The notes under the pieces: generated by a model
The model's database searches: none
The model's input: only the letters and a program-made list of their open reading frames with translations
Told to the model about the DNA's origin: nothing
Translations under genes and position numbers: made by a program
IMG/VR virus record: IMGVR_UViG_3300010153_000062
Span: 1-29,605 of that record
Source: a virus
Length of the DNA stretch: 29,605 bases
Direction: 5' to 3' (one strand)
Shown: piece after piece, positions 929 to 25,086 of the stretch
Layout: every line of letters starts with the position of its first letter
Numbering within the stretch: position 1 is the stretch's first letter

Positions 929-936
929 TATAAATA
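929..936 (-). promoter_or_regulatory. Candidate late promoter -10 element (TATTTATA) of the neck gene
   Basis: On the minus strand TATTTATA ends 15 nt before the ATG at 913, the same spacing as before the genes at 1617 (minus) and 12536 (plus). It lies downstream of a hairpin terminator, so the neck gene would need its own promoter here. The assignment rests on recurrence of the motif across the window. Confidence 0.45.
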
Positions 937-952
937 CTTTGATTTGGCATTA

Positions 953-978
953 AAAAAGGTCCCCTAAAGGACCTTTAT
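953..978 (-). terminator. Rho-independent terminator after the 1000-1617 gene
   Basis: An 8-bp perfect stem, AAAGGTCC (955-962) and GGACCTTT (969-976), encloses a 6-nt loop. On the minus strand it follows the stop of the 1000-1617 gene by 23 nt and runs into TTTT. The same stem sequence recurs in the terminator at 9543-9568. Confidence 0.75.
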
Positions 979-999
979 ATTTTTAATATGTTTTATGAT

Positions 1000-1617
1000 T
1001 TATTCGAAGTCAGTACCCTTCTCTCTTCTATCCTCATGGTCTTCATCATAACCCATATCTTTTTTTAGGTATTTTAAATGGTCCTCAATAGCTTTAACGT
1101 GGTCCTCCATCGACATTTCTTCTTTCTTATCACCACCTTCATCTTCACCGTAGTTATAAGTTTCTTCCCCTTCAGAATCCTCAGACAATTGTTTTTTTCT
1201 TTCCACAATTACCCTTTCTATTATAGAGTTTAATTTCTTTTGGGATACCTTAACAACATTTTCACCGACTACCACCTCCATTTCATTAGGCATTTTACCA
1301 TAACCTTCAGACTGTTCATTTTCCGAACCAACCATCTCACCCTCCTTTTGTTCTTTTTTTTCTATCTCACCATCAGTTATAGTGTCGTATAAGTCTTCTA
1401 TATATCTTTTAGCGTTTTTAATTTTTTTGTTCATTGATTTTGTTATTGTAACATCACCTATTTTCTGACCTGTAGTAACCCTATCTAATTGTTTTAACGC
1501 ATCAAAAGATTTTTTTAAATCTTTTTTAAGTGCACTTTCTGAACGTTCACCTTTATCTTCAGTTAGTGTGGTTAATTGTTTTTTAAGTTGTTTTTTAGTT
1601 AATTCTTTTTTAGCCAT
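1000..1617 (-). CDS. Hypothetical charged coiled-coil protein
   Basis: This 205-residue protein is not recognised. It is extremely rich in Lys and Glu, with no cysteine and no predicted membrane segment. The N-terminal 40 residues are basic and helical. Residues about 85-105 and 140-205 are acidic and low in complexity. A short segment near residues 118-138 (VVKVSQKKLNSIIERVIVER) weakly resembles the N-terminal helix shared by the proteins at 8838 and 9966. Composition and position between a neck gene and a helicase would suit an internal head or scaffold-type protein, but nothing in the sequence proves this. The start at 1617 is supported by a TATTTATAATAAA element 15 nt upstream, and a strong terminator follows the stop. 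I am confident that it is a real gene and not confident of any function. Confidence 0.75.
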   Translation of the reverse strand: MAKKELTKKQLKKQLTTLTEDKGERSESALKKDLKKSFDALKQLDRVTTGQKIGDVTITKSMNKKIKNAKRYIEDLYDTITDGEIEKKEQKEGEMVGSENEQSEGYGKMPNEMEVVVGENVVKVSQKKLNSIIERVIVERKKQLSEDSEGEETYNYGEDEGGDKKEEMSMEDHVKAIEDHLKYLKKDMGYDEDHEDRREKGTDFE

Positions 1618-1627
1618 AGCATTTCTT

Positions 1628-1640
1628 TTTATTATAAATA
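1628..1640 (-). promoter_or_regulatory. Candidate late promoter -10 element (TATTTATAATAAA) of the 1000-1617 gene
   Basis: On the minus strand TATTTATAATAAA begins at 1640, and the TATTTATA core ends 15 nt before the ATG at 1617. The same 13-mer occurs at 3431-3443 before a plus-strand gene. Confidence 0.45.
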
Positions 1641-1657
1641 TATCGAATAACTCATTT

Positions 1658-3391
1658 CTACAACATACTTATAATTTCTGACATAATATCTTCGTCTCCG
1701 ATATTATCCCCCATTACAGTATCTATGACTGATTTTTTATTATTTACAATGTTATATATTTTATATTCTATGGTATTTTGAAATATCGGGTATATACATG
1801 ATACTTTTTTATCTTGACCTATTCTAAATGCACGGTCCTCACATTGTGACATATCTGAAGGTACGAAAGATAAATCATTAAATATTACAACCTCCGCAGC
1901 GGTTAACGTAATTCCAACACCAGCAGCTTTTACATTACCTATAAATATTTTTATTTTGTCGTCATTTTGAAACCTATCTACACTAGTCTGTCTGTCTTCT
2001 TTTTTCATTGTACCATTAAGAATTACTGATTCTTTTTTATATTTGTTATGTAATTGCATTAGAGGTTCGGTAAAGTTGGTAAAGACAATAACTTTTTTAT
2101 CTTGTTGTAAACACTGGTCAATAAGTTGTGATGTTTCAGAAACCTTTTCTAAGGCAATAATTTGTCTAACCCTCATTAGTTTTGATAGCTGGATGGATAA
2201 CCCCTTATTCCTATTTTCTCGTCTCCAGTCCTTATATTCACCAACCTCATCTTCATAATCTTTGGATTTTAATTCCATATGTATAGGGGTGATTATTTTA
2301 TCGGGTAAGTCCAAAACATCCTCTTTTAACCTACGTAAAACTTTATCATTAGTCTTATCACGAAGTTCCTCAAGATTTGTAGCACCAAATGTTAACCAAA
2401 CTTTTCTATATCCCCTGAAAATTTGTTTACCATCACAATACCTTCTTACGTAGTTAATCCAGTTTGAAGCAACCCTAGAACCAACTAATTTTAATAAGTT
2501 GTAATAATTCATAGGTCTAGAGGTCATAGGAGTACCAGATAACAACCACAACCTAGATATTCTAGTGGCTAGATTGTTAACCAACTTAGTCCGTTGAGCT
2601 TTACCGTTAGATACGTAGTGAGCCTCATCTATTATAACCAAATCAAAATTAGAGTCTACTATAGTAGTTTTTTTGTCCGATGATTTTGGTAGTGAGTGGA
2701 AATTCTTAAGAATATCATAGTTTATTATAACATACTTACCATCCACCCAGTTCTTACCCTCAACAATACCAACACTATCACTACTATAATTCTCTATTTC
2801 TCTTTTCCAGTTAACTTTTAATGAAGCAGGACAAATTATTAATATTTTTTTAGCTTTACAACTAATACTTGCCATAATTGCAGAACTAGTCTTACCTAAA
2901 CCCATATCATCGGCTAGAATATATTTTTTGTTTGAGACTAGTTTGACTATAGCTTCCTCCTGATGTTCAAAAGGTGGTCTATGAGAAAATTCAGTAAAAT
3001 CAACAACAACATCACTTTTAGGTTTACTGATTAGTTGGTCTCTAGGGACCCAAAAAGAAGTTAACGCACTGGTCTCTAAAATTTTCCCCCAAACATGATA
3101 CTTACCTTCTTCAGTAATCAAGAGCTTCTCAACCCAAATATTAGATGGGGCCTTAGAAAGAAATTTAGTTGCTAGTAATTCATTAGAGTAAGGTTCGTCA
3201 ATATCCACCCACCTACGAACTACTTTTGGTACTACGTCAAAATTATTTACCACATATTCTGATTGTTCCAGTGTCAAAACTTTTATTTTACCAGATTTAA
3301 CAGACTCTCTTAAACCGATAATATAGTTATTTGCTCCAGAATATGTTAGTAATTTATCTTTAGCTATAATTTCAGGCAATTTTATATCCAT
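1658..3391 (-). CDS. SNF2-family DEAH-box helicase/ATPase
   Basis: This 577-residue superfamily 2 ATPase has both RecA-like lobes. Visible motifs are Walker A DDMGLGKT (161-168), motif Ia around CPASLKVNW (187-195), DEAH (255-258), motif III LSGTP (284-288), motif V around GNVKAAGVGITLT (485-497) and motif VI QCEDRAFRIGQ (516-526). DDMGLGKT and the RAFRIGQ arginine-finger motif are diagnostic of the SNF2 family, and the compact form resembles the SMARCAL1/HARP-like branch. Such enzymes translocate on double-stranded DNA and can anneal or remodel forks. T4 uses the unrelated SF2 helicase UvsW for branch migration, and this gene may fill that role (inference). The N-terminal 130 residues are a family-specific extension. 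It is divergent from the neck gene at 3456 across a 64-bp control region. No host-type Shine-Dalgarno is seen. All catalytic motifs are intact, so it should be active. Confidence 0.92.
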   Translation of the reverse strand: MDIKLPEIIAKDKLLTYSGANNYIIGLRESVKSGKIKVLTLEQSEYVVNNFDVVPKVVRRWVDIDEPYSNELLATKFLSKAPSNIWVEKLLITEEGKYHVWGKILETSALTSFWVPRDQLISKPKSDVVVDFTEFSHRPPFEHQEEAIVKLVSNKKYILADDMGLGKTSSAIMASISCKAKKILIICPASLKVNWKREIENYSSDSVGIVEGKNWVDGKYVIINYDILKNFHSLPKSSDKKTTIVDSNFDLVIIDEAHYVSNGKAQRTKLVNNLATRISRLWLLSGTPMTSRPMNYYNLLKLVGSRVASNWINYVRRYCDGKQIFRGYRKVWLTFGATNLEELRDKTNDKVLRRLKEDVLDLPDKIITPIHMELKSKDYEDEVGEYKDWRRENRNKGLSIQLSKLMRVRQIIALEKVSETSQLIDQCLQQDKKVIVFTNFTEPLMQLHNKYKKESVILNGTMKKEDRQTSVDRFQNDDKIKIFIGNVKAAGVGITLTAAEVVIFNDLSFVPSDMSQCEDRAFRIGQDKKVSCIYPIFQNTIEYKIYNIVNNKKSVIDTVMGDNIGDEDIMSEIISML

Positions 3392-3430
3392 AATGGAAAT
3401 ATAATAAAAAGAGAAAAGGAAGTCAAAATG

Positions 3431-3443
3431 TATTTATAATAAA
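3431..3443 (+). promoter_or_regulatory. Candidate late promoter -10 element (TATTTATAATAAA), divergent control region
   Basis: The TATTTATA core (3431-3438) ends 17 nt before the ATG at 3456. On the minus strand the same bases read TATAAATA, the T4 late box, about 40 nt before the helicase start at 3391. The one element could therefore serve both directions. A TTGACT also lies on the minus strand at 3419-3424. Confidence 0.45.
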
Positions 3444-3455
3444 GACTTATACAAT

Positions 3456-3971
3456 ATGACTAATAAAAAAGTACCTATAACAAGAATATCTAAATTTTTT
3501 GGTTCAGAAGATTTTGCTTTAGAACAAAATATTGGTATGGAGTGGCTACATGGTGATATGCATTTTACTTTGGTTTTATTTAGGGTAGACAAAAAACTTA
3601 GTGATGTGGATGATGTTTACGGTGAAGCGGGCAAAGAAGAAATTAGGTATAAAACACCTATAGAGTTTAAAGCTTATGTAGATATTGGTGAACCACAAAA
3701 TAAAAGTTATGCTGCAGGACTAGTAAATCAAATGGAACCTGGTAACCTAACTTTTAATGTATATATGAAACATTTAGATGAATTAGGTGCAGATATAAAT
3801 TATGGTGATTATATAGGTTATAATGAAACAGAAGAAAGAATGAGATATTATACCGTAACAGATGACGGTAGGGTTACATCTGATAATGCACATACAATAG
3901 GTGGGTACAAAGCTTTTTATAGGACAATAAAATGTTCTTTTGTTAGTGAAAATGAGTTTAATGGAATATAG
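3456..3971 (+). CDS. Probable neck/head-completion protein, gp14-like
   Basis: The protein has 171 residues, is acidic, mostly beta-strand and cysteine-free, with no signal peptide. The order of features (a DDVYGEA segment near residue 50, then IEFKAYVDIG, a long beta region, YGDYIGYN, and RYYTVTDDGR followed by GYKAFYRTIKC near the end) recalls the C-terminal region of T4-type neck protein gp14, which is larger (256 residues). The main support is context: the next gene, only 2 nt downstream, looks like gp15, and in T4 genes 13, 14 and 15 are adjacent. It could instead be another head-tail connector or a minor tail protein. The start is fixed by the TATTTATA element 17 nt upstream and the absence of an earlier in-frame start. 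Confidence 0.5.
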   Translation: MTNKKVPITRISKFFGSEDFALEQNIGMEWLHGDMHFTLVLFRVDKKLSDVDDVYGEAGKEEIRYKTPIEFKAYVDIGEPQNKSYAAGLVNQMEPGNLTFNVYMKHLDELGADINYGDYIGYNETEERMRYYTVTDDGRVTSDNAHTIGGYKAFYRTIKCSFVSENEFNGI

Positions 3972-3973
3972 AT

Positions 3974-5017
3974 ATGGCCTTACCTAAAAAAAATATAAAC
4001 ATAACACCACAACCAGTACAAGGGCATTACCCATATGGTTACAACGGAATTGCTACACCTAATAGGAGAAAAGAACTGGCCGACCTAATAACTGAAAACG
4101 GAACCTTTTTACCAAAATCAGTATTACATGCAGATTTAGATAGGGGTATGTTAGATTTTATTATAGATGATGTTCCTGTAGTTGTTTCAGGTAAAAAAAT
4201 ACCAGTAATAGATAGGATATTAACATTACAAAGATGGGGTGAATTTTCACAGACATGGTCATTTTCTACTAAAGATAAAAATGTGTCATTACCATTTATA
4301 GTGGTTGTTAGAAAACCAGACGTACAGTACGGAACTAACCCATCACTCCAATACACCATTCCAAATAGAAAACAAGTTCATTTTGCAAAAGTCCCTACTT
4401 GGGATGGGAATAAAAAAGGTTATGACATATATACCATACCACAACCAGTTCCTGTAGATGTTACTTATGATGTTAAGATAGTATGTAACAGAATGAGAGA
4501 ACTAAACCAATTTAATAAGGTAATACTACAAAAGTTTACATCTAGACAAGCTTATACTTACGTAAAAGGTCACTACATTCCAATAGTTATGGAATCTATA
4601 GGGGATGAATCAGTTATAGATACTGAAGAAAGAAGATACTACCAACAGAACTACCAGTTTCAACTACAAGGATTTTTAATTGACGAAGACGAGTTTGAGG
4701 TTACACCGGCGGTTAGTCGTACAGTACTTTTAATGAATGGTGAAAGTAGAAATGAAAAAATTAGAGAAAATAATAAAGTTAAAAATAAAATTAATTTTGA
4801 TTCTATAAGTAGTGCGACAACAAAAACATATAACTATAAAACTAATATTACTTTAGCTAGAACAAACAATGTTAATACTGTGGAGTTTAGAATTAATAAT
4901 GTTGTTTTAACTGAACCAGTTATGGTTAATCCTGGTGACACTGTAAGTATAACTATAGTTAAAACAACAGCTACTGCTTCAGCTTATATTATTATAACAG
5001 AAACTTTGGTGAGATAG
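3974..5017 (+). CDS. Tail terminator / sheath stabiliser, T4 gp15-like, with C-terminal extension
   Basis: The protein has 347 residues against 272 for T4 gp15. The middle part (about residues 160-250) matches the gp15 pattern: a Y-D-V-K-I strand, a helix ending in QKFTSRQAYTYV, a strand IPIVMESIGDES, then RRYYQQNYQFQLQGFLIDED followed by Glu/Phe/Val and SRT. In T4, gp15 forms the hexamer that ends tube and sheath assembly and docks the tail to the neck. Residues about 260-347 form an extra Thr/Asn/Val-rich beta domain that T4 gp15 does not have. Only 2 nt (AT) separate its ATG from the stop of the upstream gene, so the pair is probably translationally coupled. The next plus-strand gene is the sheath, which fits tail-completion function. 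Confidence 0.65.
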   Translation: MALPKKNINITPQPVQGHYPYGYNGIATPNRRKELADLITENGTFLPKSVLHADLDRGMLDFIIDDVPVVVSGKKIPVIDRILTLQRWGEFSQTWSFSTKDKNVSLPFIVVVRKPDVQYGTNPSLQYTIPNRKQVHFAKVPTWDGNKKGYDIYTIPQPVPVDVTYDVKIVCNRMRELNQFNKVILQKFTSRQAYTYVKGHYIPIVMESIGDESVIDTEERRYYQQNYQFQLQGFLIDEDEFEVTPAVSRTVLLMNGESRNEKIRENNKVKNKINFDSISSATTKTYNYKTNITLARTNNVNTVEFRINNVVLTEPVMVNPGDTVSITIVKTTATASAYIIITETLVR

Positions 5018-5188
5018 TTACTCACCGTATATGTCCTTTGCTGATTTACATTTTTCTTTTATTAACAATTCTATAAAAGCAAACATCTTAAGTCCGTGCT
5101 TTTTACAGTACTTTTTTAGTAGCTGGTGAGACTCAACACTAATCTTAATATTTTTAATGTCTTTTATTTTTTTATTGTTTGCCTTCAT
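5018..5188 (-). CDS. Small ribbon-helix-helix (Arc/MetJ-type) DNA-binding protein
   Basis: I prefer the ATG at 5188, giving 56 residues; the longer frame back to 5266 would start inside the inverted repeat at 5252-5267. A basic N-terminus is followed by a strand, NIKISVES, then helix HQLLKKYCKKHG, a turn, and helix KMFAFIELLIKE. This strand-helix-helix order with the G-x-x-x-x-x-F-I-E-x-L-I pattern is that of ribbon-helix-helix repressors, which bind DNA as dimers through the paired strands. The gene is antisense, immediately after the gp15-like stop and facing away from the sheath gene. The nearby palindrome (5252-5267) is a natural operator candidate for autoregulation or control of the sheath transcript. 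The DNA-binding fold is fairly secure; the target is inference. Confidence 0.7.
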   Translation of the reverse strand: MKANNKKIKDIKNIKISVESHQLLKKYCKKHGLKMFAFIELLIKEKCKSAKDIYGE

Positions 5189-5251
5189 ATAAGGGGGTAT
5201 TTTGCTATAATTATTAGAAAGTATGAAAATAGTATGAATTTTTTCACCCCC

Positions 5252-5267
5252 AATGTATTTATACATT
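5252..5267. promoter_or_regulatory. Inverted repeat, candidate operator upstream of the ribbon-helix-helix and sheath genes
   Basis: AATGTAT and ATACATT form perfect 7-bp arms around a 2-nt centre. The element contains TATTTATA on the plus strand (5256-5263) and TATAAATA on the minus strand, so a protein bound here could cover a promoter in either direction. It lies 63 bp upstream of the preferred regulator start and 80 bp upstream of the sheath start. Confidence 0.45.
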
Positions 5268-5298
5268 CATTTTCAAAAACTTTTGGGTTTAGATTAGG

Positions 5299-5312
5299 TA
5301 TTTATTAATAAA
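5299..5312 (+). promoter_or_regulatory. Candidate late promoter of the sheath gene (TATTTATTAATAAA)
   Basis: This is a one-mismatch version of the recurrent TATTTATA element, 41 nt before the ATG at 5348. The leader after it is almost pure A/T and ends AATAATAACAATG with no Shine-Dalgarno. It resembles the long leader of the tail tube gene, so the two major tail genes share this arrangement. Confidence 0.4.
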
Positions 5313-5347
5313 ATATAGAATAATAATAATTTTAAAAAATAATAACA

Positions 5348-8300
5348 ATGGCAGACGGTAATAAAGTATTTGTTTCTCCTGGTGTGTATACATCAGAGAA
5401 AGATTTGACATTTGTAGCACAAAGTGTTGGTGTTACAACATTAGGCTTAGTAGGTGAGGCATTAAAGGGTCCAGCCTTCGAACCAATTTTCATACAATCA
5501 TATGATGATTTTATAACTCGTTTTGGAGGTACATCACCTACAAAATACGTAGATTCACAAATACCTAAATATGAATTAGGGTATATAGCGAAATCATACC
5601 TAAGTCAATCAAATCAACTATTCGTAACAAGAGTGTTAGGTCTTAGTGGTTATGATGCGGGACCATCCTGGTCTATTAAAACTTTAGGTAGTTTAGACTC
5701 TTCACAATTTAGTGTAAGTACTGGTGGTACAGTAGGTAATGATGCGGGTACAGCTGCAATTGCAGGTACGTCGGCATATACAACTTACTTTGATATTTTT
5801 GTACCAATTACTGCTAGTAGTAATACCGCTTTAGGTTCAATTGTTTATGCAGATGCAACTTTAACAAATCCACTAACATTACCAGGACTAGTAGACCCTT
5901 CATTCGCAACTTCTACAGTAACATTAAATAACGGTTCAACACTACCAACATTTAATAACGACTTAATAAGTTGGGTAAAAGCTACTGTAACAAATACAAA
6001 TCATGCATATAATGCTGGTTGTTCTGCAACAACAGGAAGTACTTGTTTCGCTTATAATGGTGGAATTTACCAATATGGGTGTATGACGACATCTGGAACT
6101 TCAATAGCAACTGGAGCTACTAGTGGTTATACACAACCAGTAACAATAACAAATAGATTAGACACATTATGTACCGATTATACATCATATAAAAATGACG
6201 CTTGGTACTACGGACTATTCCAATACTCAAATAGTGATTGTTGTAGTGGAGGAACCTATAGTGGTGTATCATATCAACTATATCATGGAACAGCTTCCGC
6301 AGATACAGTAAATGCATCTGCTGGTGGTACGGTCTATTCAGGAACAACAGGTCAAACAGGACCAGCATCACTTAAAAATTCGGGTACTACAGTTTATTCA
6401 GCGACATGTGCAATAAACGTAGAATATTATAATAATGTTCCAGCTTATGATGAGTATGATGGAGTAGTAGTTGCTACATTAAGGTCTAGGGGAATAAGTA
6501 CAACAGGTTCTGGAGGACCAACATACGATGTAACAGGTAATTCAGTTAATTTTGATTGTACAGGGACTTACTCTGATGTACTAGAAGACCCATTTAAACC
6601 ATTTGGGATTAGTGCAACTACAGCAGGTGGAAATATATATACATTTAAAACTTCTATGACTAACACATCTAAAGATTATGTATCTAAGGTGTTTGGTGTT
6701 AGTCCATTTGACAAAAAGAGAGAAGATGTTCCTTTATTTATTGAAGAGTCTTACCCTGTAATGTTAAAAGATTTATGGAATAAAGGTAAGGTTAGAGGAT
6801 TACAATGTTGTTTAACATATCTTCCATCAGCGAGAGCAGCGACAAATACTAATACAATTGCGTGGAAAATGAATGAGTGGAGAACACCTGAAACTCCATG
6901 GATTGTAACAGAATTACAAGGTACTGACGTATTTAGGTTATTTAAATGTGTTTCGATATCAGACGGTACTTCAGCTAATAGAGAAATAAAAATATCATTC
7001 GCTAACCTATCTTTTGAGAGAGGTGAGTTTGATATTCTAGTTAGAGACTTTTATGATACTGATTCAGCACCTAACGTACTAGAAAAATTTACAAGATGTA
7101 GTCTAGACCCAACAAAAATTTCTTTTGTGGGTAGAAAAGTAGGTACGTCAACAGGTGAATTTGAATTAAAGTCTAAATACACTATGTTGTATTTGGCTGA
7201 TGGTGTTCTAGATGGTACTTTTGCTGGTTCACTACCTTGTGGGTTTGAGGGTTATAGATTTAGAACTTATAACTGTTCTTTAAATCCATTTATTAGTTAT
7301 AAAACTAAGTACTATACTCCTGGTGAAACAATTTATGACCCACCATTTGGTTCGGGTACTGGTAATAACAAAGTTTTAAGTGGTGGAGATAAGATATCAA
7401 AAGTTTATCTAGGCATATCTAACTCGGCCGGAGTAGGATACGACGCTGACTTCTTTGACTATAAATCACAACAACCACCAACTAGTATATGTACTGGTAC
7501 GGAAGGTACTGATTGGTCAACTATAACTCAAGGATTCCATATGGATTCAGGAGCAACAATAGTTAAAGGTGGTATAGGTACATATTTAGATTGGTCTGGA
7601 ACAACACTTAATAATAAATCAATATTCCAATGTGGTGTAACATCATTCCAAAAAGAACCTACATTAAGTACTGACCCTTATAAAAAATTAAGAGCACGTA
7701 AATGGACTGTATTACCACATGGTGGATTTGATGGTTGGGACATTTATAGAAAAACAAGGTCTAATACAGATGATTATAGAATGGGATTAACCGGATTCTT
7801 AAATGGAACTTGTGTTACAACAGAATTCCCTACAGCAACTGGAGACGGTTCATTTAAGAAACTAAGTAGTGTTGAAGCAAACACAGATTATTTTGCATAT
7901 CTCAGAGCCATCAATACATTTAGTAATCCAGAAGCGGTTGATATTAATGTATTCGCTACACCAGGTATCAATTACGTTGATAATTTAGGGTTAGTAAATG
8001 AGTCTATAGATATGATTGAGGATGAAAGAGCTGACTCATTATATGTTACAACAACACCAGACTATAATATGTTCGTAGCTAACACTACTGATACAGCTAA
8101 TATGGTAAGTCCTGAGGAAGCTGTAGACGCGATGGAAGATTCACTAATAGATTCTAATTACACAGCAACATACTATCCTTGGATTCAAGTAAGGGATACG
8201 GCTAATAACAAACAAATATTTATACCACCAACAGCTGAGGTAATGAGAAATATTGCATTGACTGATAATGTGTCATTCCCATGGTTCGCTTCAGCAGGTT

Positions 8301-8773: not shown

Positions 8774-8783
8774 ACATAATAAT

Positions 8784-8807
8784 GTGAGTGGGGGTGACCC
8801 CATTCAC
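8784..8807 (+). other. RNA hairpin with GTGA loop after the sheath gene
   Basis: GTGAGTGGGG and CCCCATTCAC form a 10-bp stem with one G-U pair, closed by GTGA, a GNRA-type tetraloop. It starts 11 nt after the sheath stop. Only GTTTAAAG follows, so it is a weak terminator at best. It could instead be an mRNA 3'-end stabiliser or processing site. Confidence 0.6.
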
Positions 8808-8817
8808 GTTTAAAGTA

Positions 8818-8830
8818 TATTTATAAATAA
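8818..8830 (+). promoter_or_regulatory. Candidate late promoter -10 element (TATTTATAAATAA) of the 8838 gene
   Basis: The TATTTATA core (8818-8825) ends 12 nt before the ATG at 8838 and overlaps a TATAAATA on the same strand. AAAAAGGA follows but lies only 2 nt from the ATG, too close for a normal Shine-Dalgarno. Confidence 0.45.
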
Positions 8831-8837
8831 AAAGGAT

Positions 8838-9539: not shown

Positions 9540-9542
9540 ACT

Positions 9543-9568
9543 AAAAAGGTCCTTTCGGACCTTTTTTT
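9543..9568. terminator. Bidirectional rho-independent terminator
   Basis: A 10-bp perfect stem, AAAAAGGTCC (9543-9552) and GGACCTTTTT (9557-9566), with a TTTC loop and a run of T. It lies 3 nt after the stop of the 8838 gene and 2 nt before the end of the convergent gene at 9571, so it can serve both strands. The stem core is identical to that of the terminator at 953-978. Confidence 0.9.
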
Positions 9569-9570
9569 AT

Positions 9571-9822: not shown

Positions 9823-9837
9823 AGTTTTATTTTTTAG

Positions 9838-9943: not shown

Positions 9944-9953
9944 AATAAAACAC

Positions 9954-9961
9954 TATTTATA
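9954..9961 (+). promoter_or_regulatory. Candidate promoter -10 element (TATTTATA) almost touching the HAD start codon
   Basis: TATTTATA ends only 4 nt before the ATG at 9966. If it is a -10 element, transcription would begin at or just past the A of the ATG, giving a leaderless message. Confidence 0.35.
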
Positions 9962-9965
9962 TTAT

Positions 9966-10826
9966 ATGAAACATAAAATAATAATTAATGAAAGGCAAGT
10001 AAAAAGGATATCTAAACTTATAGAACAGGAAGATAACAATACAAACGACATAAAAGCTTATTCTTTTGATTGGGATGACAATATAGTTAAAATGCCTACA
10101 TTGATTAGAATGTTAAAATATAAAGATGGTAAATGGGAACCAACACAAGTATCGACAGATAAATTTTCAAAAATTAGGAATAGTAAAAACTATAAATTAG
10201 ATGATGACGCTTTCTATAATTTTAGAGAAGAAAAAGAGTTTATAGGTGATTTAAAAAAAGCTTTAGATAATAAATCTTTCGCACCATCATTCGAGAGTTT
10301 TAAAAAAGCTTTAATAAATGCACAACCAATATCTATTATAACAGCCAGAGGACACCAACCAATCACTTTAAGAAAAGGGATGGATATTGTGATATCTAAG
10401 ACATTTAATGAAGAAGAATTATCAGAAATGTTAAGTAATATACAACTTATATACCCTAAAACCAAATATCTTACACCAGATAAGACATTAGAGATTTATT
10501 TGGATGAAATTGATTATCACCCAGTATCCTCTGTTGAATTTGCTGATAAGTTTGGTTTAGATTTTGGTTCGGCTATAAATCCAGAAGAAAATAAAAAAAT
10601 AGCTTTTAGAGATTATGTAAATAAAATAATGGACGGAACAAATAAACTAGTAAATTCTAGTTATAATAAATTATCTGTAGGTTTTAGTGACGATGATTTA
10701 GGTAATATAAACGCAATGATAGACTATATTAAGGACGAATTACAAGAAGAGTTCCCAGAAACTACATTTATTGTTTACGATACATCTGAAGGGGGATATG
10801 GGAAAATTATAATTAAGAAACGATAA
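9966..10826 (+). CDS. HAD-superfamily phosphatase-like protein
   Basis: This 286-residue protein carries HAD motif I in SFDWDDNIVKMPT, with D35 as the expected nucleophile and D37 as acid/base; motif II is SIITARG (T126); the acidic motif IV is probably VGFSDDD (D242-D244). These residues define Mg-dependent phosphohydrolases that work through a phospho-aspartate. The substrate cannot be read from sequence. Residues 5-20 (IIINERQVKRISKLIE) form a helix shared with the protein at 8838, separate from the catalytic fold, and may be a targeting or packaging tag (inference). The C-terminal 50 residues add an alpha/beta segment ending in KIIIKKR. Lying between the sheath and tube genes, it may be a virion or assembly-associated enzyme. 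The start is the only one that keeps motif I, because the next Met is residue 43. Confidence 0.75.
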   Translation: MKHKIIINERQVKRISKLIEQEDNNTNDIKAYSFDWDDNIVKMPTLIRMLKYKDGKWEPTQVSTDKFSKIRNSKNYKLDDDAFYNFREEKEFIGDLKKALDNKSFAPSFESFKKALINAQPISIITARGHQPITLRKGMDIVISKTFNEEELSEMLSNIQLIYPKTKYLTPDKTLEIYLDEIDYHPVSSVEFADKFGLDFGSAINPEENKKIAFRDYVNKIMDGTNKLVNSSYNKLSVGFSDDDLGNINAMIDYIKDELQEEFPETTFIVYDTSEGGYGKIIIKKR

Positions 10827-10851
10827 ACACTCTTTTTTTTCCATAACCGTA

Positions 10852-10878
10852 TATTTATAATAAAAGGATTTTAATCCT
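10852..10878 (+). promoter_or_regulatory. Candidate late promoter of the tail tube gene plus small inverted repeat
   Basis: TATTTATAATAAA (10852-10864) is followed at once by AGGATT-TT-AATCCT (10865-10878), an inverted repeat with 6-bp arms placed where the 5' end of the mRNA would lie. A TATAAATA follows at 10878-10885. The A/T-only leader to the ATG at 10917 has no Shine-Dalgarno. Confidence 0.45.
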
Positions 10879-10916
10879 ATAAATAAAAAATAATAATTAA
10901 ATTAAAATAAAATACA

Positions 10917-11405: not shown

Positions 11406-11425
11406 TACTCACAATATAATATAAT

Positions 11426-11580: not shown

Positions 11581-12333
11581 ATGCAAACAGAACAACCATT
11601 AGAAACTATATTACCTTATGACGTGGTATCATTACCATCACAAGGTATTTTTTACGAAAGTAGAAAAAAAAGTTTAAAAGTAACTTATTTAAATGCTTCA
11701 GACGAAAATTTACTATCAACACCGTCTATGATTGGTAGTAAAAAATTAATTCACACCTTACTAGAAAGAAAAATATTAGATAAAGATATTAATGTAGAGG
11801 AATTAGCGGAGTGTGATAAAGAAGCTATATTAATTTTTTTACGTAACACAGCTTTTGGTTCCGACTACACAATTAAACTTAAAGACCCAAAAACAAATAA
11901 TGAGTTTGAAACAAGTATAGACTTATCTATTCTAAAAACTAAAGATGTTGGTGTGGAACTAGATGAAAAAGGTGAATTCGAATATTACCTAGAAGTTTCA
12001 AAAAAGAAATGTAAACTAACTCTAATATCGCCTAGAATAGAAAAAGAACTACAAAAAATTAACGAAACCTACAAAGACCACCCAATAAATCCTTATATCA
12101 CCAAACAACTAGAAATGGTAGTGAAGGAAATAGACGGAGTTAGAGACCCAATGTCTATAGCACAAACCATCCAAATAATGCCTATTAAAGATTCTCAAAG
12201 TATCAGAAAAGTTATTAGAGAAAACGCACCAGAACTAGACCTTAGTGTCAAAGTCAAAACACCGTCCAACGAGGAGATTGGAGCACGTATTGCTTTTGGA
12301 CTTGAGTTTTTTCGTCCTTTCTACGGCATATAG
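11581..12333 (+). CDS. Baseplate hub / tail assembly chaperone, gp26-like
   Basis: The 250-residue protein opens with LPYDVVSLPSQGIFYESRKK, like the VxLPSKGxxYP start of gp26-type proteins in T4-like phages. It continues with SDENLLSTPSMI, a short helix, and ECDKEAILIFLRNTAFGSDY, also family-typical. In T4, gp26 takes part in baseplate hub assembly; in many phages the gene before the tape measure encodes a tail assembly chaperone that coats the tape measure protein. The frame ends in EEIGARIAFGLEFFRPFYGI. A second frame (+1) starts inside its 3' end and continues to 12511, and a TTTTTTC run at 12307-12313 could let ribosomes shift into it. The gene lies directly before the tape measure gene, which supports the chaperone reading. 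Confidence 0.7.
   Translation: MQTEQPLETILPYDVVSLPSQGIFYESRKKSLKVTYLNASDENLLSTPSMIGSKKLIHTLLERKILDKDINVEELAECDKEAILIFLRNTAFGSDYTIKLKDPKTNNEFETSIDLSILKTKDVGVELDEKGEFEYYLEVSKKKCKLTLISPRIEKELQKINETYKDHPINPYITKQLEMVVKEIDGVRDPMSIAQTIQIMPIKDSQSIRKVIRENAPELDLSVKVKTPSNEEIGARIAFGLEFFRPFYGI
12307..12313 (+). other. Candidate programmed frameshift site (TTTTTTC)
   Basis: In the gp26-like frame this reads TTT TTT C, 18 nt before the stop at 12331. Both a +1 shift (the Phe tRNA moving from TTT to TTC) and a -2 shift lead into the downstream frame. The product would be about 309-310 residues. The site is in the overlap between two tail chaperone frames, where programmed shifts are known in other tailed phages. 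No pause structure was verified. Confidence 0.4.
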
Positions 12334-12512: not shown

Positions 12513-12525
12513 TATTTATAATAAA
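12513..12525 (+). promoter_or_regulatory. Candidate late promoter -10 element (TATTTATAATAAA) of the tape measure gene
   Basis: The 13-mer is identical to the ones before the genes at 3456 and 1617. Its TATTTATA core ends 15 nt before the ATG at 12536. It starts 1 nt after the stop of the chaperone frame. Confidence 0.45.
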
Positions 12526-14707: not shown

Positions 14708-14718
14708 AATAAAACAAT

Positions 14719-17592: not shown

Positions 17593-17594
17593 TT

Positions 17595-18683
17595 ATGGCA
17601 AATGAAATAAAATATAAAAATTTATTAAATACCTTTGTGGGGTATAGTAAGTCATATGCTTTAGATATTAAAAATAGTTTAAGTCAAATGTTTTTAACAC
17701 AAAGTATGGGTCTTACAGAAGAATTTATGTTTGATAGAATATTTACAAATGGTACTGTTGGTGCATTAAATAGAGAATTAGTGGGTATACCACAATTCAT
17801 AATAGATGATATAATAACAAAATATACAACATTAAAAAATAGTATTAATTCTGGAACAACTAATATACAAATACAATTTAGTACGTTAGAAACAAATAAT
17901 AAAGAAAGGGAATATATAAGACACTGTTTATTAAATACACTAGAAGAACAATTAACAAACATAACCAACTCAATCCTATCAACAACAAACAGTTTTAGAC
18001 AACAACAAGTAAATTTGGTAAATACGATAGATAAATTAAATTTAGTGACTGTAAGTAATTATGATGGGGAATTTTTAAATTCTGTTGGTGGACAAGTAAG
18101 AGCCTACCAATTAACTGGGACCACAGAACTAAACGATTTAACTACCGACTACAATAGTTCAGCAGTAGTTTTAAATGACTACATAACAAAAAAAGTCATA
18201 CCGACATTTAGTAAGAACTATCCTGGTGGGGAAGAATACTTATTCTTTATTAATAGGTTATGTACAAATGATACAATGGCTTTTAATTTTAAAAACGGAT
18301 ATAAGACCCAATTAGTTGATGTATTAAAATATAGAAATGGGGAATTATATGATAAATTACTTAAAGTTGATGAAAGTAGCGTGAACGGAATAAGATACCA
18401 AACGAGTAGAAGATTTAAACCTTTGTTAGAAACTATAGTAACTAATTGGTTAACATATGATTTAAGTCTTGTAAAATCTAGATTTGATGAGACACTTTAT
18501 ATGGGTTATGAAAAATTAGAAAATAGTTTGAAAACTTTTACTACAACATATAACGTTGGTTACGGTATAAATACTGGTGCTACTGCACAAAATTTAGTTA
18601 GGAATGAATTAAAGAGTAGAAATGTGGGGACACAAACCGTTAGTTTTAACCATAAAATGATAGGACAATTATATATTAGTTAA
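17595..18683 (+). CDS. Hypothetical tail/baseplate protein
   Basis: The 362-residue protein matches no family I recognise. It is rich in Asn, Thr, Leu and Lys, largely helical in the first half (residues 1-135, with a probable coiled coil around 100-135) and mixed later, ending in a beta segment (TVSFNHKMIGQLYIS). There is one cysteine in each half, no signal peptide and no catalytic motif. Its ATG is 2 nt after the stop of the upstream baseplate gene and its stop is 2 nt before the gp53-like gene, so it is locked into the baseplate operon. A structural or assembly role in the baseplate is therefore likely from context alone. Confidence 0.7.
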   Translation: MANEIKYKNLLNTFVGYSKSYALDIKNSLSQMFLTQSMGLTEEFMFDRIFTNGTVGALNRELVGIPQFIIDDIITKYTTLKNSINSGTTNIQIQFSTLETNNKEREYIRHCLLNTLEEQLTNITNSILSTTNSFRQQQVNLVNTIDKLNLVTVSNYDGEFLNSVGGQVRAYQLTGTTELNDLTTDYNSSAVVLNDYITKKVIPTFSKNYPGGEEYLFFINRLCTNDTMAFNFKNGYKTQLVDVLKYRNGELYDKLLKVDESSVNGIRYQTSRRFKPLLETIVTNWLTYDLSLVKSRFDETLYMGYEKLENSLKTFTTTYNVGYGINTGATAQNLVRNELKSRNVGTQTVSFNHKMIGQLYIS

Positions 18684-18685
18684 TT

Positions 18686-19003
18686 ATGAGTTATTATGAT
18701 AGATATAGTGAATTTATTGTAAATGGTGACTTTATTATGGTTCCCAGCATTACATTAGATGTGAAATCTACAGATAGAGAAACTGTTTATAAAGTAGGCA
18801 AAACTAGACTGGATAAACTATCACAGCAATACTATGACTCACCCTACTATGGTTGGTTAATTATGCAAGCTAATCCACAATACGGTGGACAAGAATGGAA
18901 TATTCCAGATGGAACACTTATAAGGATACCACACCCACTAATGACATCACTTGAGGAATATAAATCAAAAGTAGACACACACTTCCTCTATTATGGCAGA
19001 TAA
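18686..19003 (+). CDS. Baseplate wedge protein, gp53/LysM-like
   Basis: The 105-residue protein has the compact LysM-like arrangement found in gp53-type wedge proteins: a strand around YKVGKTRLDKL, a helix with SQQYYDSPYYGWLIMQANP, and the closing strand IPDGTLIRIPHP. T4 gp53 shows the comparable core with an aromatic-rich segment (GNPQLYWVLLM) but is longer (196 residues). In T4 gp53 joins neighbouring wedges around the hub; in related contractile systems a small LysM protein does the same. It follows the preceding stop by 2 nt, and its 3' end overlaps the start of the giant hub-like gene by 11 nt, consistent with coordinated synthesis of baseplate parts. The N-terminal half of T4 gp53 has no counterpart here. 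Confidence 0.65.
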   Translation: MSYYDRYSEFIVNGDFIMVPSITLDVKSTDRETVYKVGKTRLDKLSQQYYDSPYYGWLIMQANPQYGGQEWNIPDGTLIRIPHPLMTSLEEYKSKVDTHFLYYGR

Positions 19004-22000
19004 ATTAAACAGCGGTAACATATACACAAATGCGGTAGGAAACAACCTTGTTGTTGTAGACCCAAACAAAGTGGTATTAAATGGTGAGATTAAAGATAGA
19101 CTTGTAGACCATGAAGATATGGTTATGTACGCTAATCTTACAGCAATAATTTATCCACGTAGTAAAGTTATTTCTGGTTCACAAAATCAAGGAGATAGAA
19201 TAATAGTGGACATATTTGATGGTGAATTAAATTTTCTAAAACCAAAAAACTCGGATTTTTTAAACTCCGATTGGACCCAAGCTTTTACAAACCCAGATGT
19301 TAATAAAAAAGTTAAAACTGTAGATAGTGAAGGTACTACTATAGGTGTAACGACAGAAAACACACTAGATTTTCAAGGATTCGGAATAACATCAATAAAC
19401 GTTAAGTTAAATGCATCATATATACCACAAGTAAGTATTAATTTTACTGATGTAAGAGGGAAAACATTATTTGAACAAGCCAGGGGGAACACTCCCTACA
19501 CGGCCTTTTTCCACCTACCATACCCAACATTTTATTTAACACTTAAGGGTTATTATGGTAAGGCAGTAAAGTACCAGCTCACCATGGAAAAATTTTCATC
19601 TAGGTTTGACCCAGCGAGTGGTGATTATTTAGTGACGTGTAACTTTGTTGGTAATCACGTAGCATTACTTAGGGATATAAATATGCACCAGGTGTTAACA
19701 GCACCATACATGTACCCAACTAGTTGTGACGCTAGTGGTTGTGTGACTGAAACTAGAGGGAAACAAGTGTTAAAAGAAGTTTATGCTACATATAGACAAC
19801 AAGGATTAATTGATGAATCTTTTTCCAAAGATTCAGAAATAACATTAGTTGACCTTATAGAAAAATTAAAATTATTAGATAATAATCTAGGAAAATTATT
19901 TGGTGAAAGTAGTTTACAAATGACTACTGATAGACTTGAGTACGATTCGTTACTTAAAGATTTAAATAAATCTATAAAAGAAAAAGATGGGTGGAAAGAC
20001 CGATACTTAAATAACAATAAAGTTGTTACAGTACAAGTTGTGGTGCCTGATACAACAACAACAGGTAAAACAATTAATGTTAGTGCTTACCCTTTAAAAG
20101 GTATAGATGTAATTCCTGAAACAGAAGACCCAATAGTCTACAAAGAAAAAATAATTACTGAAGCGAAAGATAAATTACAAGGTATAATAGACACATTTAC
20201 TGATGAAGCAAATGAAAATTTAACATTTGGAAAAGGTGGTGAATATATGGTAGACACCAAACTCCTACACCAAACAGATTTATTTGAAGCTCAAAAAGTT
20301 TCAGGCATAAATGTTAAAGTGGTTGACGACTCAGGGTTAGATACTGAATTAGAACCTTGGATTATAATGGATGGTGCGTCATTAGTATATGGTGAATTAT
20401 TTAAAAAACATAAAACTGAATTTGAAAAAAGTGCAACTAAAATGTCTACTAAAGTTGGTAAAACACTAAATAGTAGATTAGAAGCAGAAATAGGGTTTAA
20501 ACCAACCATTAGAAATGTTTTTGCAATTATTATGGCAGGTGCAGACACCTTTTTAAGACTAATGGATATAGTACACACTAACGCTATGGAAATGAAAAGT
20601 AACGCAAAAAGGTTAGACATCTCCAAAGACAGTAAAAGTAATGACATAGTTTATCCATGGCCTCAATATTTTGTTGTGGAAGAAGAAGATGAGTGTACTA
20701 CGTCTTCAGTTTTAAAATACCCAGGAGCTAAAGATGTTATAGATAGTACTGGAGCTGACGACATTAAAGTTTGGCCTGAAGTACACTTTGTTGAAGAGTA
20801 TACCAAAACAAGTGTTTATAAGTCCTCAGACTTTAATCTACAAACACCTAATAATGCCTATGTAAAAGAATTTATACCAATTAATATATACGACTGGAAT
20901 GTAACCAAAGAACCATATAGTGACACCTATTTTGTTAGTTTGATGTGGGAAATATTACTTAGAGGTCAAAAAACCGTAAGATATGGTAGTATAGATACTA
21001 GATTTGCTGGAAGTGGTTATAATCTAAACGCTCATATATTTGAACTTGCTGGTTATGATGGTAAAAATTTATATGATAAAGTTAGTAAATCTTATTCTTT
21101 AAATCAGTTTTTTAAGGATGTAAAATCTAGTGATGACTTAATTAACTTTTTAAAGACAAATGACCCAGAAAGAACAAACTTATATCTAGAATCAAATACA
21201 GTAACACCACAAACAAACACTAAGTCATATGATTTTTCTTATACAGAAATAGTTTATAGTGTAAATCCAGCAGGGTTTGAAGAAAATATAAAATACGTTA
21301 AAGACATATCAAAAACTTTTGATGCATTTTTTGACCTCGCACCAACATACTGGGGAGGTGCGGGTGGTTGGATTAAAGCCAATTATGCTAATGGTGAAAA
21401 TAGTAGGGTTGGTGATTTTTATGAAATAGGAAAAAGTTTAGAATATGATTTAGGTGGGACATTTAATCTCAGGGATAAAGATGATATCCGATACCAGATA
21501 TATAAAAACTTTTGTTTTAGTTTTGAAATAGATACACTAGCTAGATTTAATAACACACCAAAAAAACTAAGTTCACAACCAGAAGAATTTTACAAAGAAT
21601 TAAACACCTCAACAAACCCACTAGGAGTTACAGAAGGAGAAATAGTGAGGGATGATACTACAACATTCTCCACATCGTTACCAGTACCTGGTTCACCAGC
21701 ACCAGTAGCTGAAGAAAACTATAGTCTATATACTTCCATGTTGAATACACCTTATTTTATAAATGCAATTGTGGGTGGTGTAGCTATGGACGCTCTTGGA
21801 ATGCCCGGTCCATATATTTCTGCGTCGTACCTATTCTTAAACTCCCTACCACTACCGACATTTAGAGAAAAAGTTTTATTAAAAGGTGATAGTGAGGGAA
21901 CAACAGAGTTCGGTTCATACATATCACAAATATTTAATCAAATACCAGCTATTCATGATGTACCAGTATCATTATTACTTAGACTAGGGTCAATATGGCA

Positions 22001-25000
22001 TAGATATAAAGAACAAGTTAATGGTATGGGTGATATACTTGGTGGTGATTTTAATAACTTAGGTGGAGGAGGTGGTGTTGGTCCGTTCTATGACCCAGTT
22101 GGTGGTAATATAAATCAATCATTTACCTACACAGATAGTTCTGGTGGTGGAACATTAAATTATAATGGTTCTACAACAAATTTCGGAGTCTACCAAGAGG
22201 TAATAGGAGCTATACATTATATTGCTTCTGGTGAGTTTACCACACCAACAACCAATTTAAATAATGCAATTGGAGTGGGAGCACCACTAACAATATCACA
22301 AAATCCAAACATAACAACAAATAATACTGACTTTAAATTTTTTGACGTTCATTTAGATTCGGCTAATATCACCAACCCACTCTTAGGAGCAAAAGGAACT
22401 GGGAGGGATTATTTTATTGTATACCCTTCTTCAGGAGCTCTAATTGATACAGATATTAATAGTTATTCCACACCTAATGTTGCATGGTTAAATAATGGTG
22501 GTTGTAGAATGTTATGGGGAATGTCTAATTATGGATACTTCCAACATAGCCCAAATTATAGAGCACAAGAACATAGATACTTTAAGAAAATAGACAACAC
22601 ACAAGACCAACAAATAGCTTGGCAGCTTAGACCTTTTGATGTACAAGACTATTCAACGATAGAAGAATTAAGAGGGGTGTTTAATTCAGAACAACTAGAT
22701 TTTTTTGAATCGTTATTTTTAAAATTTGCAAGTCCTAACGGTGATGCTGACTTGGGTGGTAGTATGAAACAAATTATTAAAGATATTACAGTTATTGAAA
22801 AAAAATGGTTAGACCCTACACAGGCAGTAACTAGAATAGAGGGGGTTCTCGCTAAAGCACAACTTAAAAAATTCGGTAAAGTCATGACTAAATTTTTAAA
22901 TAAAAGAATTAGTTATGTACATAAAACAACAACTAATGTTGGGGAGGTCATAAACAACTCAACCCTAATACAAAAATTAAAAGATATTGAATCTGGTAAT
23001 AACGAATATGAATTTGGTAACCTAACTCCAGGTAGTATACCACCATTAGCTGGTTCACAAGAAGACATAGATATTAAACTACATGTTGGACAATACTACT
23101 CTCAGGATAGTACCCAATTTACTATCTTAGTACCAAATGTAGCAACAAACCCAATATTAAACTTTTTTGCTACTATTAGAAATAATGGGATAGAATTTAA
23201 TTCTGAAAACATAAAAGGTTTTGCTCCTTTTATAAGATTGTATGCCGCACACTGTGCCAATAGTGGGTTAATACCAGCTAGTACATACCTTACACAATTT
23301 ATGTCTGAATTAGATGGTCTGTCCACAAAAGAAAATGAATACATAAATCAGTTAGTAAAAGTTAGTAATGGAAATATTAACGATGAAGAAAACACACCAG
23401 ACCAAGATATGGCGGACAGTAGAACAAGTATCGAAGGTGATGACCTAAAATTGGATTTATACAATCAATTTAAAACTCTTAATGATAGGTGGATATCAGG
23501 ATTAGACCTACAAACCCAAACACTATTTCAGAGATTTTTATTTTTCGATAGAGCAAATAAAGATATTGGTGATAGTGCAATTATTAATATATGGGACATA
23601 ATAAAATTAGACACACCTTTTGACTCTGGAAACGAAAAAACATTAACACAGAGTATTTCTAGTTACATATCCACAATTTTAGCAAATAATTTCTTTAACT
23701 ACATTCCATTACCGTCGTACATTAACTTCTATAGTGTTGGTGGTGATAACACACAAAAACAGGGTAATGCGATGTTTGGGACATTTAAAACAGTAGATTA
23801 CTTAGAATCTTCCCCAGTTTTTCTATGTCAATATGTTGGAAAACCATCATCCCAATTAAATAATAAAGCCCCAAACAATGGATATGCTAATGACGGGTTT
23901 GCATTAAATTTGGTTAGTAATAACCCTTTGGCTGGTCCTGACTGTGGTAACAAAAAACTATCTAATAAAGTTATGGGGTTCACGGTAGACTTTGGAATAC
24001 CTAATCAAAACATGTTTGAATCAATAACATTAGACCAAGAACAATTTCAAAACACTTCAGAGAGTTATAAGATATTACAACAAATGGCAGATTCGGGTGG
24101 TGGAGGAGCAACCAGTATGGCATCATCATCATTATATAATGTCTATGCGAGTAGGTCTTACACAGCAAAAGTTACATGTATTGGAAATGTGACCATACAA
24201 CCAACCCAATACTTTCAGTTAAGATACCTACCAATGTTTAACGGACCTTATTTAATTATAAATGTAGAACACAACATAACACCCAACAATATAGAAACAA
24301 GTTTTGAGGGTGTTAGAGTACCAATACCTAAATTACCAAATATTACAGACTTGGTACAAAGAGTAGAAGAAAAACTTTACGCAGCAGCAGAAACTAGACT
24401 ACAAGATAAAATTAAAAATGTATTTTATGATGATAACGATGCAACACCAAAACAATTAAAATTAACACCGGAAGATAACGGTTATTTAGATTTGGATAAT
24501 ACACCTTGGGTGGAAGACAATGTTGAATTACTACTACCAATTATGCCAGAATTAATTAACCCACAACAAATAACAGATAGCAAAACAAGACATCTAGGTG
24601 TAGACTTAACACCAATACCAAGTCAAACAACAGAGGTTAGTAGTGAAGAAGGTATATTAATTAGACCAGTTATGGTTGGAACAGTTATTGATAGATTAGA
24701 TGGTTGTAAACCACAACAAAAAGATAACAAATGTGCAAGATATGGTAATTATGTAATAACTCAAAAAACTATACTGGAATTCCCTGGAGAAGGTGAAACA
24801 GCTTACTACAAAGTAAAATATGCAAATCTAAGAGAAGGTGAAGTATTGGATATGGGTCAAGAAGTATCTAAAATTAGTGATAGTGATATTGCTTTTGGTA
24901 ACGTTATTATAGGTAAATTAGGAAATAGTGGAATGTCTAGGGGACCTCATTTACACTTAGAAGTAATACGTGGTGTTGTTAATGGTAGTGGTAAAGTAGT

Positions 25001-25049
25001 AGAACATTACTTAAATCCTGAACGTATGTTCCCGGAATATTATTCTTAG
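18993..25049 (+). CDS. Giant baseplate hub-like protein with C-terminal M23 (LytM-type) peptidase
   Basis: At 2018 residues this is the longest gene in the window. Residues about 130-235 are a beta-rich domain. A long central part (300-1700) has Gly-rich linkers (about 1024-1030). Residues about 1715-1785 (an AKVTCIGNVTIQP strand, then FNGPYLIINVEHNI and a closing FEGVRVPIP) have the form of hub proteins such as gp27/gpD, where an OB-like domain supports the spike. The C-terminal domain from about 1860 is a zinc peptidase of family M23: H1867 and D1871 in HLGVD, and the HxH pair H1986/H1988 in GPHLHLEV, with the conserved GNSGMSRGPH approach. M23 enzymes cut peptide crosslinks in peptidoglycan, so it probably opens the cell wall when the tail contracts. 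Fusing hub and lytic domain parallels T4, where a lysozyme domain sits in gp5. No catalytic residue is missing. Confidence 0.85.
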   Translation: MADKLNSGNIYTNAVGNNLVVVDPNKVVLNGEIKDRLVDHEDMVMYANLTAIIYPRSKVISGSQNQGDRIIVDIFDGELNFLKPKNSDFLNSDWTQAFTNPDVNKKVKTVDSEGTTIGVTTENTLDFQGFGITSINVKLNASYIPQVSINFTDVRGKTLFEQARGNTPYTAFFHLPYPTFYLTLKGYYGKAVKYQLTMEKFSSRFDPASGDYLVTCNFVGNHVALLRDINMHQVLTAPYMYPTSCDASGCVTETRGKQVLKEVYATYRQQGLIDESFSKDSEITLVDLIEKLKLLDNNLGKLFGESSLQMTTDRLEYDSLLKDLNKSIKEKDGWKDRYLNNNKVVTVQVVVPDTTTTGKTINVSAYPLKGIDVIPETEDPIVYKEKIITEAKDKLQGIIDTFTDEANENLTFGKGGEYMVDTKLLHQTDLFEAQKVSGINVKVVDDSGLDTELEPWIIMDGASLVYGELFKKHKTEFEKSATKMSTKVGKTLNSRLEAEIGFKPTIRNVFAIIMAGADTFLRLMDIVHTNAMEMKSNAKRLDISKDSKSNDIVYPWPQYFVVEEEDECTTSSVLKYPGAKDVIDSTGADDIKVWPEVHFVEEYTKTSVYKSSDFNLQTPNNAYVKEFIPINIYDWNVTKEPYSDTYFVSLMWEILLRGQKTVRYGSIDTRFAGSGYNLNAHIFELAGYDGKNLYDKVSKSYSLNQFFKDVKSSDDLINFLKTNDPERTNLYLESNTVTPQTNTKSYDFSYTEIVYSVNPAGFEENIKYVKDISKTFDAFFDLAPTYWGGAGGWIKANYANGENSRVGDFYEIGKSLEYDLGGTFNLRDKDDIRYQIYKNFCFSFEIDTLARFNNTPKKLSSQPEEFYKELNTSTNPLGVTEGEIVRDDTTTFSTSLPVPGSPAPVAEENYSLYTSMLNTPYFINAIVGGVAMDALGMPGPYISASYLFLNSLPLPTFREKVLLKGDSEGTTEFGSYISQIFNQIPAIHDVPVSLLLRLGSIWHRYKEQVNGMGDILGGDFNNLGGGGGVGPFYDPVGGNINQSFTYTDSSGGGTLNYNGSTTNFGVYQEVIGAIHYIASGEFTTPTTNLNNAIGVGAPLTISQNPNITTNNTDFKFFDVHLDSANITNPLLGAKGTGRDYFIVYPSSGALIDTDINSYSTPNVAWLNNGGCRMLWGMSNYGYFQHSPNYRAQEHRYFKKIDNTQDQQIAWQLRPFDVQDYSTIEELRGVFNSEQLDFFESLFLKFASPNGDADLGGSMKQIIKDITVIEKKWLDPTQAVTRIEGVLAKAQLKKFGKVMTKFLNKRISYVHKTTTNVGEVINNSTLIQKLKDIESGNNEYEFGNLTPGSIPPLAGSQEDIDIKLHVGQYYSQDSTQFTILVPNVATNPILNFFATIRNNGIEFNSENIKGFAPFIRLYAAHCANSGLIPASTYLTQFMSELDGLSTKENEYINQLVKVSNGNINDEENTPDQDMADSRTSIEGDDLKLDLYNQFKTLNDRWISGLDLQTQTLFQRFLFFDRANKDIGDSAIINIWDIIKLDTPFDSGNEKTLTQSISSYISTILANNFFNYIPLPSYINFYSVGGDNTQKQGNAMFGTFKTVDYLESSPVFLCQYVGKPSSQLNNKAPNNGYANDGFALNLVSNNPLAGPDCGNKKLSNKVMGFTVDFGIPNQNMFESITLDQEQFQNTSESYKILQQMADSGGGGATSMASSSLYNVYASRSYTAKVTCIGNVTIQPTQYFQLRYLPMFNGPYLIINVEHNITPNNIETSFEGVRVPIPKLPNITDLVQRVEEKLYAAAETRLQDKIKNVFYDDNDATPKQLKLTPEDNGYLDLDNTPWVEDNVELLLPIMPELINPQQITDSKTRHLGVDLTPIPSQTTEVSSEEGILIRPVMVGTVIDRLDGCKPQQKDNKCARYGNYVITQKTILEFPGEGETAYYKVKYANLREGEVLDMGQEVSKISDSDIAFGNVIIGKLGNSGMSRGPHLHLEVIRGVVNGSGKVVEHYLNPERMFPEYYS

Positions 25050-25051
25050 TG

Positions 25052-25086
25052 TTGACTATTATTGATTTACTAGATATTTATATAAT
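25052..25086 (+). promoter_or_regulatory. Promoter region of the 25105 gene (TTGACT plus TATTTATATAAT)
   Basis: TTGACT (25052-25057) is exactly 17 bp before TATTTA (25075-25080), which continues into TATAAT. The region thus combines a host-like -35 with the phage TATTTATA element (25075-25082). The core ends 22 nt before the ATG at 25105. Confidence 0.45.

Follow-up and report, generated by a model that had tools for sequence, protein, structure and literature searches.

The window, meaning the whole stretch of 29,605 nucleotides analysed here, is the complete 29.6-kb viral record IMGVR_UViG_3300010153_000062, which encodes tail sheath, tail tube and baseplate parts as well as a UvsW-like helicase, SSB, UvsX and an exonuclease. 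The element under study is TATTTATA, which recurs upstream of several of these genes and which an earlier note, made from the sequence alone, had proposed as a late promoter. The window UvsX has 293 relatives in IMG/VR, and its sole matches among annotated phages are the Flavobacterium immuto phages (45% identity), while the tail tube protein also matches Rhodothermus phage RM378; therefore, the host of the window phage is likely a member of the Bacteroidota. A UvsX search of bacterial genomes, aimed at a host link, gave no match. Four large relatives, G001–G004 (128–232 kb), and the complete immuto genome were used for whole-genome analysis.

Eight copies of TATTTATA read in the direction of the gene that they precede, with gaps to the start codon of 15, 15, 17, 12, 4, 57, 15 and 22 nt, just as had been claimed. 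On the geometry set out below, a transcription start (+1) can be predicted for each. On the minus strand, the box at 929–936 precedes gene 2–913, encoding a head-tail adaptor-like protein (predicted +1 at 924, leader 11 nt; orthologue gaps 10–16). The longer form TATTTATAATAAA, reported before in three copies with gaps of 15–17 nt, is indeed found there and totals four copies: at 1628–1640 on the minus strand, covering the box (1633–1640) and the start region of gene 1000–1617 (predicted +1 at 1628, leader 11 nt; orthologue gaps 13–16), and, on the plus strand, at 3431–3443 (box 3431–3438) before gene 3456 (predicted +1 at 3443, leader 13 nt), at 10852–10864 (box 10852–10859) before the tail tube gene 10917 (predicted +1 at 10864, leader 53 nt) and at 12513–12525 (box 12513–12520) before gene 12536 (predicted +1 at 12525, leader 11 nt). 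The remaining plus-strand boxes are at 8818–8825 for gene 8838 (predicted +1 at 8830, leader 8 nt), at 9954–9961 for gene 9966 and at 25075–25082 for gene 25105 (predicted +1 at 25087, leader 18 nt). Among the three near matches listed earlier, only that of the tail sheath gene 5348 held up, a variant box TATTTATT at 5299–5306 on the plus strand (predicted +1 at 5311, leader 37 nt) whose orthologues carry a TATTTAT box in 27 of 35 cases, with exact copies mostly at gaps of 31–40; at 11581 the TATTTAT box was kept in 1 of 21 orthologues, and the site before 26153 belongs to a different class.

With the last base of the box allowed to vary (TATTTAT), orthologous upstream regions retained it in 26/26 cases for gene 3456, 28/31 for 8838, 57/57 for the tube gene (exact gaps 30–50), 15/15 for 12536 and 26/26 for 25105. 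The copy inside the sheath gene at 8217, already pointed out as a caution, and further copies at 1940, 18566 and 19676 lie in coding sequence and look incidental. Counted on both strands, the window holds 16 copies against 7.7 expected, a number reached by 2 of 100 shuffles and thus only weakly above chance; within 70 nt of gene starts, there are 8 sense and 4 antisense copies, and the signal in the window is one of position rather than raw count. The tube-gene box and a reverse copy at 10878–10885 flank AGGATTTTAATCCT and form an inverted repeat within the predicted leader (10852–10885). As well, the predicted start of a small reverse gene at 5018–5266 overlaps a TATTTATA copy on the other strand (5256–5263), and its true start may be further in.

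The motif discovery and strand comparison that the earlier note had recommended were run on six genomes (n = 933 upstream regions, 3–26 nt before genes), where TATTTATA is the most enriched sense 8-mer before genes, with 126 sense and 15 antisense occurrences against 3.6 expected. An expectation-maximisation motif seeded from TATTTATA retained the box with a looser last base (A 0.91 at -7; A 0.63 and T 0.27 at -5) and was estimated to precede about 30% of genes, and the same procedure applied to T4 recovered the T4 late box TATAAATA. The element marks structural, not replication, genes: in the annotated immuto genome, the exact box precedes 8 of 24 structural or lysis genes, against none of the 27 genes in the replication or nucleotide group (Fisher p = 0.001), and replication-side orthologues carry it in 0 of 43 cases for UvsX and 0 of 40 for FKBP. 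This distribution over gene classes suggests that the boxed genes are expressed late in infection.

The distance between box and ATG has two peaks. A set of 245 loci, giving 1,794 distinct upstream regions, had 14, 49 and 11 cases at gaps of 3, 4 and 5 nt (74 in total), a trough of 4, 2, 1 and 0 at gaps of 6–9 (7 in total) and a second peak of 160 at 10–19, compared with about 1 per gap in a column-shuffle null. Of the 33 gaps shorter than 10 nt in the first six genomes, 26 measure exactly 4 (binomial p ~2e-20), a count and p-value that orthologues inflate, and the safer number is that of protein families: gap-4 boxes there stand before 18 unrelated ones. The single fixed distance proposed originally is replaced by two, and the 4-nt gap, an outlier in the first list, turned out to be the most informative.

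The flavobacterial -7 box lies at -12 to -5, with 4 or 5 nt to the start site (PMC6847099, PMC9723704). In these phages the host-type box TAHHTTTG, too, is most frequent exactly 4 nt before the ATG (23 cases; e.g., TATCTTTGtagtATG), and since its position is known, a gap of 4 would put +1 of the TATTTATA class on the A of the ATG. An independent check on this geometry is given by the leadered class, which, when aligned on the box, has A at 86%, 93% and 89% at -1, +1 and +2 and 47% at +3; this AAA block is centred on the same position and would mark the start site. The gap-4 peak and the AAA block together point to a box position of -12 to -5. Base frequencies from -42 to +10 reveal two AT-rich patches, one at -28 to -26 and one at -20 to -18, and, at -36 to -30, no conserved base that could represent a -33/-35 element. 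In its predicted geometry, which is well supported, TATTTATA thus behaves as a promoter core, and the predicted +1 is the fifth base after the box. Predicted leaders then number 74 at -1 to 1 nt, 7 at 2–5 nt and 160 at 6–15 nt, and the original estimate of 8–10 nt is about right for the main class. The spacing indicates that about a quarter of the TATTTATA-started messages would be leaderless, with the start codon on +1. A TATAAT hexamer within TATTTATAATAAA was considered as the -10 box and rejected: gap-4 genes show no constraint on the two bases following the box, and transcription would begin within the gene.

Gene 9966 is the member of this class in the window (9954–9966, plus strand), where the predicted +1 is the A of the ATG. 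Among its orthologues, the 4-nt gap occurs in 24 of 25 exact boxes, each a distinct upstream region, even where the sequence farther upstream has been replaced, and the gap is 12 in the one other. In other orthologue sets the gap drifts, mostly within 11–19 nt for gene 12536, 12–18 nt for 8838 and 12–29 nt for 25105. If initiation is leaderless, the spacing should be fixed only in genes whose start codon would coincide with +1, which matches the contrast between gene 9966 and the drifting genes; the promoter-to-ATG distance of gap-4 genes is under constraint. One gap-4 family (G001 10630, G002 154772, G003 111023) may be the large terminase, a name taken from reading the sequence alone. In immuto gene 74474–74992, an ATG preceded by a gap-4 box (74579) lies 105 nt downstream of the annotated start, which the leaderless rule suggests correcting.

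The earlier note had also suggested looking for a gp55-like sigma factor elsewhere in the genome, and a candidate of about 235 amino acids matching the late-sigma family phrog_234 was found in four relatives, namely G001, G002, G003 and immuto. It has relatives in 389 viral contigs, with a conserved alignment. In its AlphaFold model, built with the immuto sequence left out, fold matches are mostly bacterial sigma factors, and region 2 of RpoS aligns with a target TM-score of 0.67; a match to Sigma70_r2 is sub-threshold. Another family, phrog_12791, was tried as the late sigma and rejected, with no match. The element TATTTATA is probably read by this candidate sigma.

Taken together, TATTTATA is quite probably the late promoter core of a large group of T4-like phages, most likely of Bacteroidota, with a leaderless subclass. 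The late promoter originally claimed is, therefore, upheld in enrichment, strand, gene class, its predicted -12 to -5 geometry and the presence of a candidate gp55-like sigma in relatives, and given up in its emphasis on a reverse complement and on one distance. In the proposed mechanism, the box would be the core of a promoter for late, particle-building genes and would be read by the gp55-like sigma on host RNA polymerase, with AT-rich patches near -27 and -19 and no -33/-35 element. The first RNA base would be an A, five bases beyond the box, so that leaders would mostly be 6–15 nt and about one start codon in four would coincide exactly with +1. Very short leaders are feasible, since the likely hosts make no use of Shine-Dalgarno pairing. 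More tentatively, and with somewhat less than an even chance of being right, the late regulon may be split in a widespread clade of Bacteroidota phages: a dedicated sigma without a T4-type clamp would read a box intermediate in form between that of T4 late promoters and the host -7 element, leaderless messages would coexist with leaders of 6–15 nt while 2–5 nt is avoided, and leader class would set the translation of late proteins on ribosomes without Shine-Dalgarno pairing.

Several observations weigh against the late promoter reading. The match of the candidate sigma to phrog_234 is weak (E 1.9e-6 to 8e-3), hhalign aligns it to gp55 with a probability of 47%, its model is of moderate confidence (pLDDT 74, pTM 0.45), and the best fold match has E 0.056, with none below 0.05. 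The candidate lies outside the window fragment, and fragments G004 and G005 gave no match for a phrog_234-type sigma. In addition, some structural genes have no box of their own, as operons would predict if an operon structure is assumed; start codons came from a simple ATG-only gene caller; and the host phylum of the phage group is deduced from phage matches.

The host housekeeping sigma might instead read TATTTATA as a variant -7 element, so that no phage sigma would be needed or the host sigma would only be remodelled. The two boxes would take the same -12 to -5 position and have T-12, A-11, T-8 and T-6 in common, and AT-rich patches near -18 and -28 also occur in F. johnsoniae promoters, where the -33 element itself is weak (PMC6847099). 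However, TATTTATA has A at both -7 and -5, where the host box almost always has T and G, a -33 element is missing, and the pattern TATTTATAN4ATG is not enriched in 12 flavobacterial genomes (94 vs. 106 for the reversed pattern), where TAHHTTTGN4ATG is mildly so (865 vs. 636). Genuine host-type boxes stand before other genes of these phages, which have a sigma-like gene as well, and this explanation appears unlikely. It is decidedly unlikely, too, that the promoter is as proposed and the gap-4 genes are not leaderless, with translation from a downstream codon or a start site a few bases upstream. Gaps of 3 and 5 nt do occur, and 5' ends and N-termini are predicted ones; against this, orthologue N-termini align from residue 1, the 4-nt gap is nearly invariant for gene 9966, and the immuto annotation has the same starts at 10527 and 142474.

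An action of TATTTATA in the mRNA, aiding ribosomes on messages free of Shine-Dalgarno sequences, had been offered as an alternative in the earlier note, and both the nearness of the element to start codons and the lack of Shine-Dalgarno use in the hosts (PMC6847099) would suit it. One preferred distance would then be expected instead of peaks at 4 and 10–19 with a trough between them, and the box of a gap-4 gene would be outside the mRNA. Moreover, gaps of 30–50 nt are conserved at the tube gene, the box is absent before replication genes translated in the same cell, and the AAA block is tied to the box, not to the ATG, all of which makes this role very improbable. Chance recurrence in AT-rich DNA could draw on the window count being only about twice expected; it is refuted by the strand and position bias across genomes and by TATAAATA, which has the same composition and no gap peak in the upstream regions of these phages, and its probability is negligible.

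Compared with the T4 late promoter (gp55-gp33-gp45, TATAAATA), the element shares an 8-bp TAT-NN-ATA box lying one helical turn upstream of the predicted start site and a location before structural genes, and the phages encode a candidate gp55-like sigma. The T4 late promoter has no -35 element and an AT-rich start region (PMC2988020), as is the case here. The central bases are TT in TATTTATA and AA in TATAAATA; describing the element as the reverse complement of the T4 box is true but uninformative, since TAT-TT-ATA and TAT-AA-ATA stand in the same orientation with two central bases changed. In T4, gaps to the ATG are 14–28, with none at 4. The sigma candidate differs from gp55 in extra C-terminal helices, its C-terminal part being without a counterpart in T4 gp55, and no gp45-type clamp was found in G001–G004 or immuto with PF02916 and PF09116, although a divergent clamp could be missed. 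The Bacteroidota housekeeping promoter (-33 TTTG, -7 TAHHTTTG) resembles the element in the inferred box position, the AT-rich patches and the gap-4 peak of host-type boxes in the same phages, and differs by T-7 and G-5 where the element has A-7 and A-5, by its -33 element and by the absence of TATTTATA enrichment before ATG in host genomes. As in leaderless genes of bacteria and phages, the promoter core ends a few bases before the ATG, which would then be +1; few genes are leaderless in flavobacteria (5.5% in F. psychrophilum, PMC9723704), compared with about a quarter of exact boxes here. The T4-like phage RM378, with a Rhodothermus host, has an upstream motif TTATTTAAA, and its top sense upstream 8-mers, TTATTTAA and TATTTAAA, precede 25 and 23 of 148 genes. 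There, TATTTA ends in a sharp peak 7 nt before the ATG, one base further away than here, the box ends in AAA, and the annotated sigma matches another family (phrog_1740).

No prior description of a TATTTATA-type late promoter in T4-like Bacteroidota phages was found in the literature searched, which left most subscription papers outside. If the reading is true, one spacing rule would predict start sites to the base in hundreds of contigs from uncultured phages and aid the correction of start codons, and the promoter with its likely sigma could be used for Flavobacterium work. The missing 2–5-nt leaders and the conservation of a leaderless class, in a phylum that does not use Shine-Dalgarno pairing, would pose a question of translation initiation testable in the isolated pair immuto and Flavobacterium sp. 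LMO8.

The SSB-UvsX operon is preceded by a different element, at 26080–26103 on the plus strand, which consists of TTTGAC with a downstream TATGTTTG (TANNTTTG type) and was recognised from SSB orthologue upstreams. TTTGAC(A) is kept upstream in most orthologues of SSB gene 26153, the TATTTAT box is found in 11 of 38, with exact ones at gaps of 31–43 nt, and the conserved element is probably an early or middle promoter of the host -33 type. Fourteen genes in G001–G004 have a host-type box, TATCTTTG or TATATTTG, exactly 4 nt before the ATG, often followed by tagt; they would form a second leaderless class, probably an earlier one, several members of which have secretion-signal-like N-termini. 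No TATTTATA was found within 60 nt before genes in the late regions of S-PM2, phiM12, GAP32 and LR756508. The Microcystis phage Mel-JY01 (1–50000), with a cyanobacterial host, has seven sense copies of TATTTATA within 60 nt before genes, mostly at gaps above 30 nt. As a minor observation, the immuto annotation includes family A DNA polymerase genes.

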